Positions 4,875 through 62,175 of a stretch of DNA of 64,000 nucleotides are shown here, in pieces. Location: assembly GCF_002688565.1 (NCBI RefSeq), contig NZ_CP024011.1, positions 434,001-498,000 of the forward strand, given 5' to 3'. This DNA comes from Acinetobacter sp. LoGeW2-3 (GTDB lineage Bacteria; Pseudomonadota; Gammaproteobacteria; Pseudomonadales; Moraxellaceae). Position numbers and translations under genes: made by a program. The stretch's first letter is position 1, and each line of letters starts with the position of its first letter. The notes beneath the pieces were generated by a model. It worked only from the letters and a program-made list of their open reading frames with translations, ran no database searches and was not told the DNA's origin.

Positions 4875-5526
4875 ATTTGGCCTGTTTTCGCTGTTTTAAA
4901 TTCTCTACATGCTGACGATTGGTCTGCCAGGATTTCTCCAGCATGACTTTTTCCAGCTGCAGCTGAATCCGCTTCAGTTTAGTTTCAGAAATCACTGACT
5001 CCTGAAAGCTTTTTACATAGTCGGTCCAGCTTGCACCATGAAATACATTTTCCGACATAGCTGTTTTAAATTCAGCTTCTGGCATAAATACCACCAGCGA
5101 ATGAATATATTCCGGACTGAGGATCTCCGCTAGAATCTGTTCCAGCACTTTGATGTGTTTATAGTTCTGATGCAGTGGATTCTGGAATTTATAACTCTGT
5201 TTATAAATCTTTTGCGTCCACATCTTTTGCCGTTCACCACCAAAAATCCAGCCTTTATAGTTCTTGGTTTCAATCACAAACAGCCCAAATGGGCTTAGCA
5301 GTAAATGATCAATCTGGGTTGTGGTGCCTTGCTCGTCTTCAAAAGTCAGGTTATTCATTAGAATATAATGAGGCTGCTTTAAGTAGAGTTTGACATGCAT
5401 GGCAACGGCGAACTCGCCAAACCTCCCCTTGAAATAAGGCTTAAACAGTTTAAGTAAGGCTGCTAAAGACAATAAAAGAAACAGCCACCAGAAATTTTCA
5501 ATCACCGGGGCAAGCATAGGATTCAT
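4873..5526 (-). CDS. NERD domain-containing membrane-anchored protein
   Basis: A 217-residue protein with one N-terminal membrane segment (about residues 10-28, FWWLFLLLSLAALLKLF), followed by a NERD (nuclease-related) domain: GRFGEFAV at the domain start, then IDHLLLSPFGLFVIETKNYKG, where the D...E-x-K pattern matches the restriction-endonuclease-like active site. The tail is charged and helical. NERD proteins are suspected nucleases or DNA-processing proteins; no specific role is known. It lies 36 bp downstream of ogt on the same strand, so co-transcription is likely, which is loosely consistent with a DNA-related function. Confidence 0.82.
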   Translation of the reverse strand: MNPMLAPVIENFWWLFLLLSLAALLKLFKPYFKGRFGEFAVAMHVKLYLKQPHYILMNNLTFEDEQGTTTQIDHLLLSPFGLFVIETKNYKGWIFGGERQKMWTQKIYKQSYKFQNPLHQNYKHIKVLEQILAEILSPEYIHSLVVFMPEAEFKTAMSENVFHGASWTDYVKSFQESVISETKLKRIQLQLEKVMLEKSWQTNRQHVENLKQRKQAK

Positions 5527-5562
5527 TTCGACTGGAATAGTTTTTATTTAGATGTGAATATC

Positions 5563-6045
5563 TTACTTATTTTGTTCAATATTTAACAGAATTTCCTTTC
5601 GCTCCAGACCACCAGCAAAGCCCACTAAAGTACCATTGGTACCAATCACACGGTGACATGGGGCGATAATCGAAATCGGATTACGGCCATTGGCAGCCCC
5701 CACGGCACGAACCGCTTTCGGATTGCCAATCTCGAGAGCAATTTCACGATAGGTTCGGGTTTCACCATAGGGAATATTCAGTAAAGCTTGCCAGACACTT
5801 TTTTGAAATGCTGTACCGGCAAAGTCTAGCGGCACATCAAAACAGGTCCGTTGACCAGCAAAATATTGCTCTAACTGGGCTTTGGCTGTGACTAGAATAG
5901 GATGCTCGGGATCTTCAATTAAGGTGGCCAGTTTGACCCGGTTTGGCTTTTCACAATCCCAAAGTACCGCAACCAGTGCATCTGCACTCGCCACCAACTG
6001 CAGTTGACCTACGGGTGAATCCATATAGATATAACTTAAATTCAT
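5563..6045 (-). CDS. ogt: Methylated-DNA--[protein]-cysteine S-methyltransferase (Ogt type)
   Basis: Suicide repair protein that moves alkyl groups from O6-alkylguanine or O4-alkylthymine to its own Cys. In the 160-residue form the active site PCHRVIG places the acceptor Cys at about 130, with the helix-turn-helix region IPYGETRTYREIA and the GRNPISIIAPC loop ahead of it. Length suits Ogt rather than the fused Ada. The ATG at 6045 is preferred (AGGGTGA upstream, family-like MNLSYIY start); an ATG 8 codons earlier is possible. Confidence 0.93.
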   Translation of the reverse strand: MNLSYIYMDSPVGQLQLVASADALVAVLWDCEKPNRVKLATLIEDPEHPILVTAKAQLEQYFAGQRTCFDVPLDFAGTAFQKSVWQALLNIPYGETRTYREIALEIGNPKAVRAVGAANGRNPISIIAPCHRVIGTNGTLVGFAGGLERKEILLNIEQNK

Positions 6046-6155
6046 GTCTTCACCCTGTTGCAGTGCCATAGAATGATTATTTTAACGCAGTGATCGAAAA
6101 GTGGCTTATATAAATAAATGCTGACACATTTAAGTTCTGATGCACTATGCAAACT

Positions 6156-6473
6156 TTAGGAAGATGAAAGCTTCATTAAAACCAAACCAGAAATAATCAA
6201 CACAGCCGCCAGCATGCGCATCGCACTCGCTGGTTCTCCCAGAATAAGAATACCAATCAGAAAAGAACCGACGGCACCAATTCCTGTCCAGATTGTGTAA
6301 GCGGTTCCTAACGGTAATGTACGCATGGCGTAAGCCAGCAGTGCAAAACTCAGAAACATGAAAAGAATAGTAATAATGCTTGGGGTCAATTTACTAAAAC
6401 CTTCCGATAGCTTCATCGAATAGGCCCAAACGACTTCAAAAAGACCTGCCAGTATCAATAAAAACCAGGCCAT
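6156..6473 (-). CDS. gdx: Guanidinium exporter Gdx (SugE-type small multidrug resistance protein)
   Basis: A 105-residue, four-helix SMR transporter that works as an antiparallel dimer, exporting guanidinium in exchange for protons. Catalytic Glu13 lies in LAGLFEVVWAYSMKLSEGF, and WTGIGAVGSFLIGILILGEP matches the Gdx/SugE branch rather than the EmrE branch. Start at 6473 is fixed by a very strong ribosome site, GGAGGAGGG at 6477-6485. A guanidine-II riboswitch directly upstream independently supports the guanidinium substrate. Confidence 0.95.
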   Translation of the reverse strand: MAWFLLILAGLFEVVWAYSMKLSEGFSKLTPSIITILFMFLSFALLAYAMRTLPLGTAYTIWTGIGAVGSFLIGILILGEPASAMRMLAAVLIISGLVLMKLSSS

Positions 6474-6476
6474 ATG

Positions 6477-6570
6477 CCCTCCTCCATTATTTAAGAAGTC
6501 AGGCCGTCCTGACGATTTTTCCTGAGCAAAAGCAATATTTTGCATCAAGGGAGGTCGTTCCTCCTGAAAC
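6477..6570 (-). promoter_or_regulatory. Guanidine-II (mini-ykkC) riboswitch controlling gdx
   Basis: Two short hairpins on the minus-strand RNA, each with the ACGR loop diagnostic of mini-ykkC: first at 6550-6564 (GGAGG, loop AACGA, CCTCC), second at 6498-6513 (GTCAGG, loop ACGG, CCTGAC). The ribosome site GGAGGAGGG is at 6477-6485. The 3' arm of hairpin 1 (CCTCCC) is complementary to the ribosome site, so a plausible switch is: without guanidine the arm masks the site; ligand-stabilised hairpins free it. The motif is read directly; the mechanism is inferred from the known class. Confidence 0.9.
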
Positions 6571-6781
6571 TGTGCAGATTGTATAAAATCACTTGCAAAA
6601 ATACAGCGCAAATTACAAAAGATGACGGTATGAGATGCAACTTAACCGAGCTTAACTTAAGCACTCAAGACACACCCCGGAAAAGTCGCTACCTTAAGTA
6701 CCCAGTTGAGAACAAAACGGAGTTCTCAATCACTTTAAAAATGACAACAATGTACTTTAGCACCGCTCCAAAACAAGAAGA

Positions 6782-7105
6782 TTATCCACATCAAATAATT
6801 AAGTTATGCACATCAATTAAATTTAAAATTGTTCGGAGAAGTTACACAATGAAACATAAAATTAAGATAAGTTGATCACTTTTTATAAAGCTTGATTAAT
6901 AAGCATTGGTGAATAAAACACCAGAATTTGCAAGACTTTCAAAATAGAAAAAGAACCCTATTTGAGTTCTTTTTATACATATTTTGTATAATGCTTAAAC
7001 AACCAAGCTACAATTGATTACAATTTATGCTGGATATCCATAGGGTTACCCACATAGATATCCATATACTTATCCATAAAGTTATCCACAAGCTACTGTG
7101 AATAA
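6782..7105. promoter_or_regulatory. Cluster of DnaA-box-like 9-mers with a 12-bp periodic array
   Basis: The rpe-gdx gap has no convincing gene. It holds four exact matches to TTATNCACA: 6782-6790, 6804-6812 and 7082-7090 (plus strand) and 7097-7105 (minus strand). In addition 7034-7090 is five tandem 9-mers at an exact 12-bp period (starts 7034, 7046, 7058, 7070, 7082): ATATCCATA, TTACCCACA, ATATCCATA, TTATCCATA, TTATCCACA. DnaA binding is inferred from the consensus. No dnaA, dnaN or rpmH is near, so this is not the expected oriC. Confidence 0.6.
6948..6974. terminator. AT-rich hairpin, possible weak terminator downstream of rpe
   Basis: AAAAAGAAC / GTTCTTTTT stem with a 9-base loop; low GC makes termination uncertain. 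Confidence 0.4.
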
Positions 7106-7118
7106 CATAAAATTCCGA

Positions 7119-7805
7119 TTAGACAGTGAGCTGACCCACTTTTGCCAGCTCAGCACGCATTTCATCAATCACAGCTTTATAATCCGGCTTACCGAAGATC
7201 GCTGAACCTGCTACAAACATGTCTGCACCCGCTTCGGCAATTTCACGAATATTGGCTGGTCCAACACCACCATCCACTTCCAGACGAATATCACGACCTG
7301 AAGCATCAATGATCTTGCGTGCCTGACGCAACTTGTCCAAAGTCATCGGAATGAATTTCTGACCACCAAAACCCGGGTTTACACTCATCAACAGGATCTG
7401 ATCCACTTTATCCAGTACATAATCCAGATAATGCAATGGAGTTGCCGGGTTAAACACCAGACCAGCCTGAGCGCCGCCAGATTTGATCAACTGTAAAGAA
7501 CGGTCGATATGATCCGATGCTTCCGGGTGGAAAGTAATAATGTCCGCACCTGCTTCAAGGAAATCACCAATCATACGATCGACCGGTTTGACCATCAGAT
7601 GCACATCAATCGGTGCCTTGGTGCCATATTTTTTCAGTGCCTTACATACCCCTGCACCAAAAGTCAGGTTGGGTACATAGTGGTTATCCATCACATCAAA
7701 ATGAACAACATCAGCACCTGATGCCAGTACATTTTCAACTTCTTCACCGAGACGGGCGAAGTCAGCAGACAAAATAGAAGGTGCAATTAAATATGGCTTG
7801 GACAT
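7119..7805 (-). CDS. rpe: Ribulose-phosphate 3-epimerase
   Basis: Pentose-phosphate pathway enzyme interconverting ribulose 5-phosphate and xylulose 5-phosphate. The 228-residue TIM barrel shows [14 protein letters not shown], the metal ligands in [12 protein letters not shown] and DVHLMV, the NPGFGGQ loop, and LEVDGG / FVAGSAIF for phosphate binding. ATG at 7805 gives the family N-terminus [12 protein letters not shown]; 12 further in-frame codons upstream look unrelated. Its 3' end borders the DnaA-box-like array. Confidence 0.96.
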
Positions 7806-7940
7806 GGAAGAACCTGGCTGAATATGAGATGAATAGCGCATTATAACAAATTGTCCGAGTGGCTGCGCCTGTTGCGTATTGCCTTAACCGATACTCAAGC
7901 CTTCTCTAAGCGATCAACATTCAGTAATCATTTGAATATA

Positions 7941-7970
7941 GAAAAACAAAAGCCACACTAAGCGTGGCTG
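7941..7970 (-). terminator. Terminator of the M48 peptidase/DUF898 operon
   Basis: AGCCAC/GTGGCT stem followed by a T-rich tract on the minus strand, about 28 bp past the M48 gene stop. Confidence 0.7.
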
Positions 7971-7997
7971 TCTTGTCATAAAATATGATGAGGACAT

Positions 7998-9029
7998 TTA
8001 ATGCGAGTGGTTAGACTCAAATGCTTTCACTGCCTTAATCCGATCCTGAGTTGCAGGATGGCTGCTAAAGAAATCCCATACAGAGCTTTCAGCCTCTTTC
8101 TCTTCACCAGATTCTTTGGCTAGGCGTTCCAGAAAGTTAGCAAAATGAATGGTAGGAATTTGCTGAGCCTGCATGGCCTTTAATGCATAGTCATCCGCTT
8201 CAGCCTCAAAGTTACGCGAATAGCTGGCTCCGACCATCGCAACTGGCAAGTTTGTCAGCAAGTCTGAACCATCGCCTGTAATCATGATCAAAATTACGCT
8301 AAAACCTAAACTAGATAATGCCTGTTGCAGGCTATGTCGCTGGACTAGATGCCCCTGTTCATGTGCCAGTACACCAATAATTTCCCGGTCATCTTTGGCT
8401 AGTGCGACCAGCTCATCAGTCAAGATAATAGTATTGTTTGGAATCGCTAACGCATTGGCACCAATTGCGCCACCTTGACGGAAAACCACCTTCGCCGGGT
8501 TATCTCCTGCTACCAGTTGCTGATATTGCGCCACAATCTTCTGCTGACGAGCTTTCGGTAGTTTGGTGTCGTCAGTCATCTTCAGGACATAGCTTTCTGC
8601 TTCATCGCCCATACGTGTCAGGGTATTGGCTGGCAGATGATTTGCCACATGATAGGAAGCTACTGGAATGCCCCATTTAATCGTCGCAAAGCCTAGTGCC
8701 AGCACAAATGCAACACTAAACAAGATCAAAGCCGGTGTGCGTTCCAGCTTCCAGACCGAATGCTGCAATCCTTTACGCTGTAAATTAAACCATTCCGGTA
8801 ATTCAGTAGAAAATTCTAGCCGCGCATCATCTTTCATGTCCACCACAGGCTGAATTTTTCCGAGTGCTCCAATTAGCTGCATGTCTGCATACTTGTAATG
8901 TCGCTGCTGTGCATACGCCTCGCCATACCGAACCAGTACCGACTGATCATCAATCGCAAAGACCTGTGCAGGTTGCGGTTTCGAGACAATACCATCATAG
9001 AAAATGGCATCGATCACTTGAGCAGACAT
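7998..9029 (-). CDS. M48 family zinc metallopeptidase, membrane-anchored
   Basis: A 343-residue protein with a cytosolic-looking N-terminal region (1-90), one membrane segment (about 98-118) and an M48 peptidase domain with the zinc motif HEQGH (223-227) and the downstream Glu ligand in SRNFEAEADDYAL. M48 proteins such as HtpX and BepA act in membrane or envelope protein quality control; the target here is unknown. It starts 12 bp after the DUF898 gene, and this pairing recurs in proteobacteria, suggesting joint function. Confidence 0.88.
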   Translation of the reverse strand: MSAQVIDAIFYDGIVSKPQPAQVFAIDDQSVLVRYGEAYAQQRHYKYADMQLIGALGKIQPVVDMKDDARLEFSTELPEWFNLQRKGLQHSVWKLERTPALILFSVAFVLALGFATIKWGIPVASYHVANHLPANTLTRMGDEAESYVLKMTDDTKLPKARQQKIVAQYQQLVAGDNPAKVVFRQGGAIGANALAIPNNTIILTDELVALAKDDREIIGVLAHEQGHLVQRHSLQQALSSLGFSVILIMITGDGSDLLTNLPVAMVGASYSRNFEAEADDYALKAMQAQQIPTIHFANFLERLAKESGEEKEAESSVWDFFSSHPATQDRIKAVKAFESNHSH

Positions 9030-62119: not shown

Positions 62120-62140
62120 TTTATTCACAAGTCATTCCAA

Positions 62141-62175
62141 AACTGTGGATAATTTAGACATTATCCACAGTTTTT
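62141..62175 (+). terminator. selO terminator formed by inverted DnaA-box-like sequences
   Basis: AACTGTGGATAAT / ATTATCCACAGTT (13-bp stem, 6-base loop) followed by T's. The arms contain perfect TTATCCACA boxes in opposite orientation (62144-62152 minus, 62161-62169 plus); a third, TTATTCACA, is at 62121-62129. Confidence 0.8.

Follow-up and report, generated by a model that had tools for sequence, protein, structure and literature searches.

To our knowledge, the prevention of re-initiation is poorly known outside the E. coli group, and the closest described counterparts of the locus presented here are the DnaA-binding sites of E. coli. The datA and DARS sites are described as holding conserved relative positions in E. 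coli (PMC4585315), where DnaA is reported to bind in vivo mainly at pairs of boxes 2–3 bp apart (PMC11317965). Arrays of weak boxes of the same direction beside a strong box load DnaA cooperatively at oriC, according to the account in PMC4451416, and DARS2 is likewise depicted with a strong box next to which weak boxes of the same direction take up ATP-DnaA (PMC8682772). The DnaA boxes of E. coli have also been described as crowding towards oriC, a layout presented as suited to titration (PMC12371093).

The window analysed here, a stretch of 64,000 nucleotides from Acinetobacter sp. LoGeW2-3 (C1:434001-498000), contains five DnaA-box-like 9-mers of one direction, spaced at exactly 12 bp and lying approximately 654 kb from dnaA (C1:1094935-1096314). 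No title or abstract among the matches listed in literature searches describes such an array in Acinetobacter, which does not establish its absence from print. When each box is scored by its matches to TTATCCACA out of 9, the five-box sum is 39 out of 45. Box 1, the anchor (TTATCCACA, 7082..7090, 9/9), is accompanied on the same plus strand by box 2 (TTATCCATA, 7070..7078, 8/9), box 3 (ATATCCATA, 7058..7066, 7/9), box 4 (TTACCCACA, 7046..7054, 8/9) and box 5 (ATATCCATA, 7034..7042, 7/9). These five starts, as well as an inverted box (TTATTCACA, 7097..7105, minus strand), lie exactly where the first-pass annotation had placed them. Its claim of regular phasing is borne out, as the five-box score at this pitch averaged 25.8 and peaked at 30 in 200 first-order Markov copies of the window, while control pitches of 9–11 and 13–24 in the real window did not exceed 29. 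Its claim of rising box quality holds for the final box, which is the best, but the order of 7, 8, 7, 8, 9 alternates and shows no steady climb. Single boxes carrying no more than one mismatch are frequent (101 observed in the window versus 77 expected), so that the evidential weight rests on register and conservation. As in an extra-origin array in general, several close DnaA boxes, not attributable to chance, are found here at a distance from dnaA.

The array adjoins the 3' end of the ribulose-phosphate 3-epimerase gene rpe (7119..7805, minus strand; TIGR01163, 322 bits against a cut-off of 212.6; start codon picked by eye), which ends at 7119. Beyond the array lies a terminator-like hairpin in the same sense as rpe (6948..6974, minus strand), such that the array may sit within the rpe transcript, and the distal neighbour is a gene encoding a SugE-type SMR transporter (6156..6473, minus strand; NF008512, 130.5 bits against a cut-off of 126). 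Across the 96 aligned arrays from the genus, the median distance from the rpe stop to the array is 28 bp. The distal gene, tallied as the longest reading frame and possibly not the nearest gene, encodes a multicopper oxidase in 64, an Ogt-like protein in 15, a HAD hydrolase in 10 and another kind in 3, with four singletons. Two further boxes on the plus strand, a perfect TTATCCACA (6782..6790) and TTATGCACA (6804..6812), start 22 bp apart, approximately 270–300 bp from the array. The latter is common among relatives, with a TTATNCACA box 240–320 bp past box 1 in 55/96. At the place of the former, a 500-base scan found a second TGTGGATAA at L001, the window's own locus, and at the duplicate L031 but at none of L002–L004. 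Elsewhere in the window (62121-62170), TTATTCACA is followed by TGTGGATAA and TTATCCACA as hairpin arms and then by a T run, forming a terminator-like hairpin built of DnaA boxes immediately following a gene judged by eye to be YdiU/SelO-like.

A search of 119 Acinetobacter genomes found Rpe in 117, and 110 of those loci were read. An array 3' of rpe with a score of at least 33 is present in 96 of the 110, the remaining 14 scoring at most 26; one degenerate array (L078) scores 33 and the other 95 score at least 37. Profile R1, built from 49 of the rpe-side arrays and searched against all 119 genomes, matches beside rpe in at least 100 of them by hand count among the matches listed (98 at E <=3.7e-16, plus G094 at 1.7e-12 and G022 at 1.4e-11). 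The alignment of the rpe-side gap across the genus, proposed in the first-pass annotation with absence from sister species as its test, therefore came out in favour of the array, which is the best-conserved stretch between rpe and the distal genes. Nineteen of the 119 genomes have no rpe-side match among those listed (G001, G014, G015, G020, G026, G050, G055, G073, G077, G090, G092, G098, G099 and G103, as well as G012, G030, G031, G032 and G046, which were left out of the rpe-locus reading), indicating that the array is dispensable to the genus. One of these, G012, is a single-contig genome, 99% complete, with neither an Rpe match nor an array beside rpe among the matches listed. Eleven of 12 named Acinetobacter loci carry the array, including those of A. 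lwoffii, A. nosocomialis and A. ihumii; it is absent from the rpe locus of A. pollinis, and 68 other rpe loci have five-box scores of at most 30. At E <=0.01, individual genomes have as many as four R1 matches; in the genome of the window, a weak third match (C1:1960929) scores 25/45 and is not an array. In an rpe nucleotide tree with the root chosen on L117, the array is missing from the early-branching loci and was apparently lost by several that branch later. Many branches have low support, which makes an early gain no more than likely.

The conserved unit consists of one strong and four weak boxes. In the orientation of rpe, box 1 reads TGTGGATAA in all 96 arrays, a count favoured by the anchoring rule, which prefers a perfect first box when arrays are picked; outside this set, L229 has a box 1 of 8/9. 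Boxes 2–5 are perfect in 1, 0, 0 and 0 of the 96, respectively, and reach at least 7/9 in 96, 96, 95 and 92, in a constant 12-bp register. The weak forms swap among lineages (TGTTTATAA, TATGGATAA, GGTGGATAA, TGTTGATAA and others), almost never turning strong. One pitch past box 5 the mean match is 3.0/9, and one pitch before box 1 it is 3.9/9, yet 19/96 reach 7 there. The inverted cap proposed at 7097-7105 is present in the window but falls outside this unit, as a TTATNCACA box in the 40 nt preceding box 1 is found in 6/96, confined to a few close relatives. The 96 arrays comprise 62 distinct 57-mers; coming from non-independent relatives, they do not amount to 96 separate tests. With the same reservation about relatedness, the occurrence in at least 100 of 119 genomes, the constant register and the identity of the weak boxes indicate that the array is kept by selection.

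The R1 scan also revealed a second locus in many genomes. Among 28 non-rpe match loci fetched from the genus, 27 lie at the recB-recD junction, while the 28th (L199, from the window's own genome and weakly matched) is without the array. The recB-recD arrays score at least 36 in 25 cases, 33 in L312, and 32 in the genome of the window, where three boxes are good. Here recD was assigned by TIGR01447 above its cut-off, and the RecB fragment by TIGR00609 under the whole-protein cut-off. A profile of the recB-recD array (R2), applied to the 119 genomes at E <=1e-5 with stricter filters, matched 114 of them among the matches listed, 102 with two matches, 12 with one and none with more. Locations could be assigned to some of the second matches. 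One genome carries two recB-recD-type arrays of equal score on opposite strands, 51 kb apart (G026:C14:174085-174163 and 225473-225551), as if the region had been duplicated and inverted.

Both arrays hold regular positions with respect to the origin. Measured from dnaA in 33 chosen genomes where the two genes share one large contig, rpe is found at 0.197 +/- 0.017 of the contig and is co-directional with the fork in 33/33; the recB-recD array lies at 0.106 +/- 0.013 and is co-directional in 21/21. These positions bring to mind those of datA and DARS in E. coli, where the DARS2 fraction is close to the 0.197 of rpe. Such distances from oriC may, however, reflect no more than gene order.

Box runs of the same pitch are also found at origins. 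The rpmH-dnaA gap contains a three-box 12-bp run in 12 of 20 Acinetobacter genomes, against 0 of 136 control stretches, and the other 8 of these origins are without one. In other Moraxellaceae, nine genomes match R1 at E <=1e-6, five of the loci being at dnaA. The remaining four, from one genus (L301, L303, L304 and L306), have 12-bp box runs with five-box scores of 28–36; in the 5 kb read they are not adjacent to oriC, and DnaA, RecB, RecD and Rpe were unmatched. At L301 and L304, a nearby response-regulator gene is most like RstA, under the cut-off of that model. A profile search at the level of the order matched 47 of 76 genomes at E <=0.1, the window's own genome included, and the best match outside the genus (1.7e-5) is a locus without the array (27/45). 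Among 19 order-level loci (L161–L179), three were placed at dnaA by eye, and the others are without a comparable five-box array, except for a coding repeat (L164, 37).

The next best-conserved element after the array is an adjoining dyad (6995..7021, no strand assigned), with the fullest form ATAAACAA-N11-TTGTTTAT. The mean complementarity of its arms over the 96 copies is 0.76 (best of the placements tried), versus 0.29 +/- 0.04 with a maximum of 0.50 elsewhere, and the window's own copy has 6/8 pairs. In seven copies inspected, one arm often varies alone. In sequence the arms are similar to TGTTTATAA, the form most often taken by box 2. In other species the dyad overlaps an IHF-like site, a match to the IHF consensus at +82 with no more than one mismatch being present in 47/96, whereas the window's own copy has three mismatches at best; IHF-alpha is encoded in the same genome. 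A second peak of the IHF consensus (40/96, opposite strand) falls inside the last box of the array itself, which makes the consensus alone weak evidence.

On the strength of its sequence, register, conservation and position, from which we infer DnaA binding, nucleotide preference and an effect on initiation, the array is very probably a site of cooperative DnaA assembly. The earlier likening to filament-loading arrays, at a place away from dnaA, dnaN and rpmH, is well supported by the sequence, namely by the 12-bp register, the single strong box with four weak ones, the rpe-side conservation and the shorter run at oriC in 12 of 20 genomes. The strong box 1 would anchor one DnaA molecule, and the four weak boxes, 3 bp apart and in the same direction, would allow more DnaA, probably ATP-DnaA, to assemble head to tail as a short filament. 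Replicated part-way along the arm, and with its recB-recD partner nearer the origin, the array would most likely lower the DnaA available for a second round, whether by titration or by promoted inactivation, as at E. coli datA. That the main effect is to leave less DnaA free to re-initiate seems an evenly balanced proposition. There is likewise about an even chance that the array is a conserved extra-origin DnaA assembly site with titration or inactivation as its main role, datA-like in effect.

The array resembles datA as a non-coding cluster of DnaA boxes away from oriC and perhaps also in the IHF-like site of approximately half of the Acinetobacter relatives; it differs in its single direction, its 12-bp pitch, its one leading strong box and the missing IHF-like site of the window's own copy, the two sites being likened here by description. 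With the R5M-tau2-I1-I2 boxes of E. coli oriC and the Acinetobacter rpmH-dnaA run it shares close, weak boxes of one direction and, with the latter in 12 of 20 genomes, the 12-bp pitch. However, the weak sites of E. coli oriC are described as 2 bp apart (PMC4451416) versus 3 bp here, and the rpe site is not an origin. The E. coli double boxes at purH, polA and mutH/DARS2 have the same 3-bp spacing, the purH pair being given as one perfect and one 7/9 box (PMC11317965), whereas the rpe array has five boxes and lies 3' of its gene.

The chief rival is local regulation, in which DnaA on the array would form a roadblock to transcription, help to terminate it or repress it, at rpe or an adjacent gene and, for the recB-recD array, at recD. 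The position of the array between the rpe stop and, in 52/96, a terminator-like hairpin would fit such control, and both arrays read with their genes as well as with the fork. At recB-recD the partner array overlaps the start of recD, which suits local control, and the rival is stronger there than at rpe, where the array lies past the 3' end of the gene. The distance between rpe and the array, which exceeds 60 bp in 9/96, also argues against it, as does the changing kind of distal reading frame. Since that kind differs among lineages, the DnaA-controlled promoter suggested in the first-pass annotation is unlikely for the distal gene, although transcription of rpe itself might be affected. As the main role of the array, local gene control is on balance unlikely, if a serious contender.

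The suggestion of a DARS-like site, promoting ADP release from DnaA, is improbable. DARS2 likewise has a strong box with weak same-direction neighbours in its regulatory part, as described in PMC8682772, and the boxes together with the IHF-like site would suit such a function, as would the similar relative distance from oriC. However, the DARS core is stated to require opposed boxes I and II (PMC8682772), and the DARS2 core is described as specific to E. coli relatives (PMC4245941). The window itself does carry an opposed box, but the core is lacking in 90/96 arrays, so that membership among DARS sites fails; the array is, moreover, beside rpe and not mutH.

Still more improbable is binding by a protein other than DnaA, or an RNA 3'-end element. 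The conserved dyad adjoining the array and the possible transcription of the latter would accord with this, but the anchor is an exact DnaA box, the 12-bp pitch recurs in box runs at oriC and, in other genera, next to dnaA, and Rfam gave no match at 5500-8000 of the window. A second or relic replication origin is highly implausible despite the resemblance to part of oriC, as GC skew stays negative on either side of the array, from 5 through 16 kb of the window, without changing sign around 7 kb, and the rpmH-dnaA gap shows an ordinary origin layout.

Returning to DnaA assembly that limits re-initiation, conservation so far from the origin suggests a previously undescribed site controlling DnaA. 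Rather tentatively, most Acinetobacter may possess a two-station control of DnaA that replaces datA and DARS, in which phased arrays at recB-recD (~0.11 from oriC) and 3' of rpe (~0.20), their boxes held weak by selection, would nucleate ATP-DnaA filaments on replication and time the next initiation. The combination of one strong box with four weak ones at a 12-bp pitch provides a testable grammar for locating such sites elsewhere, and the paired, gene-anchored DnaA arrays kept through most of the genus offer two exact targets for deletion.
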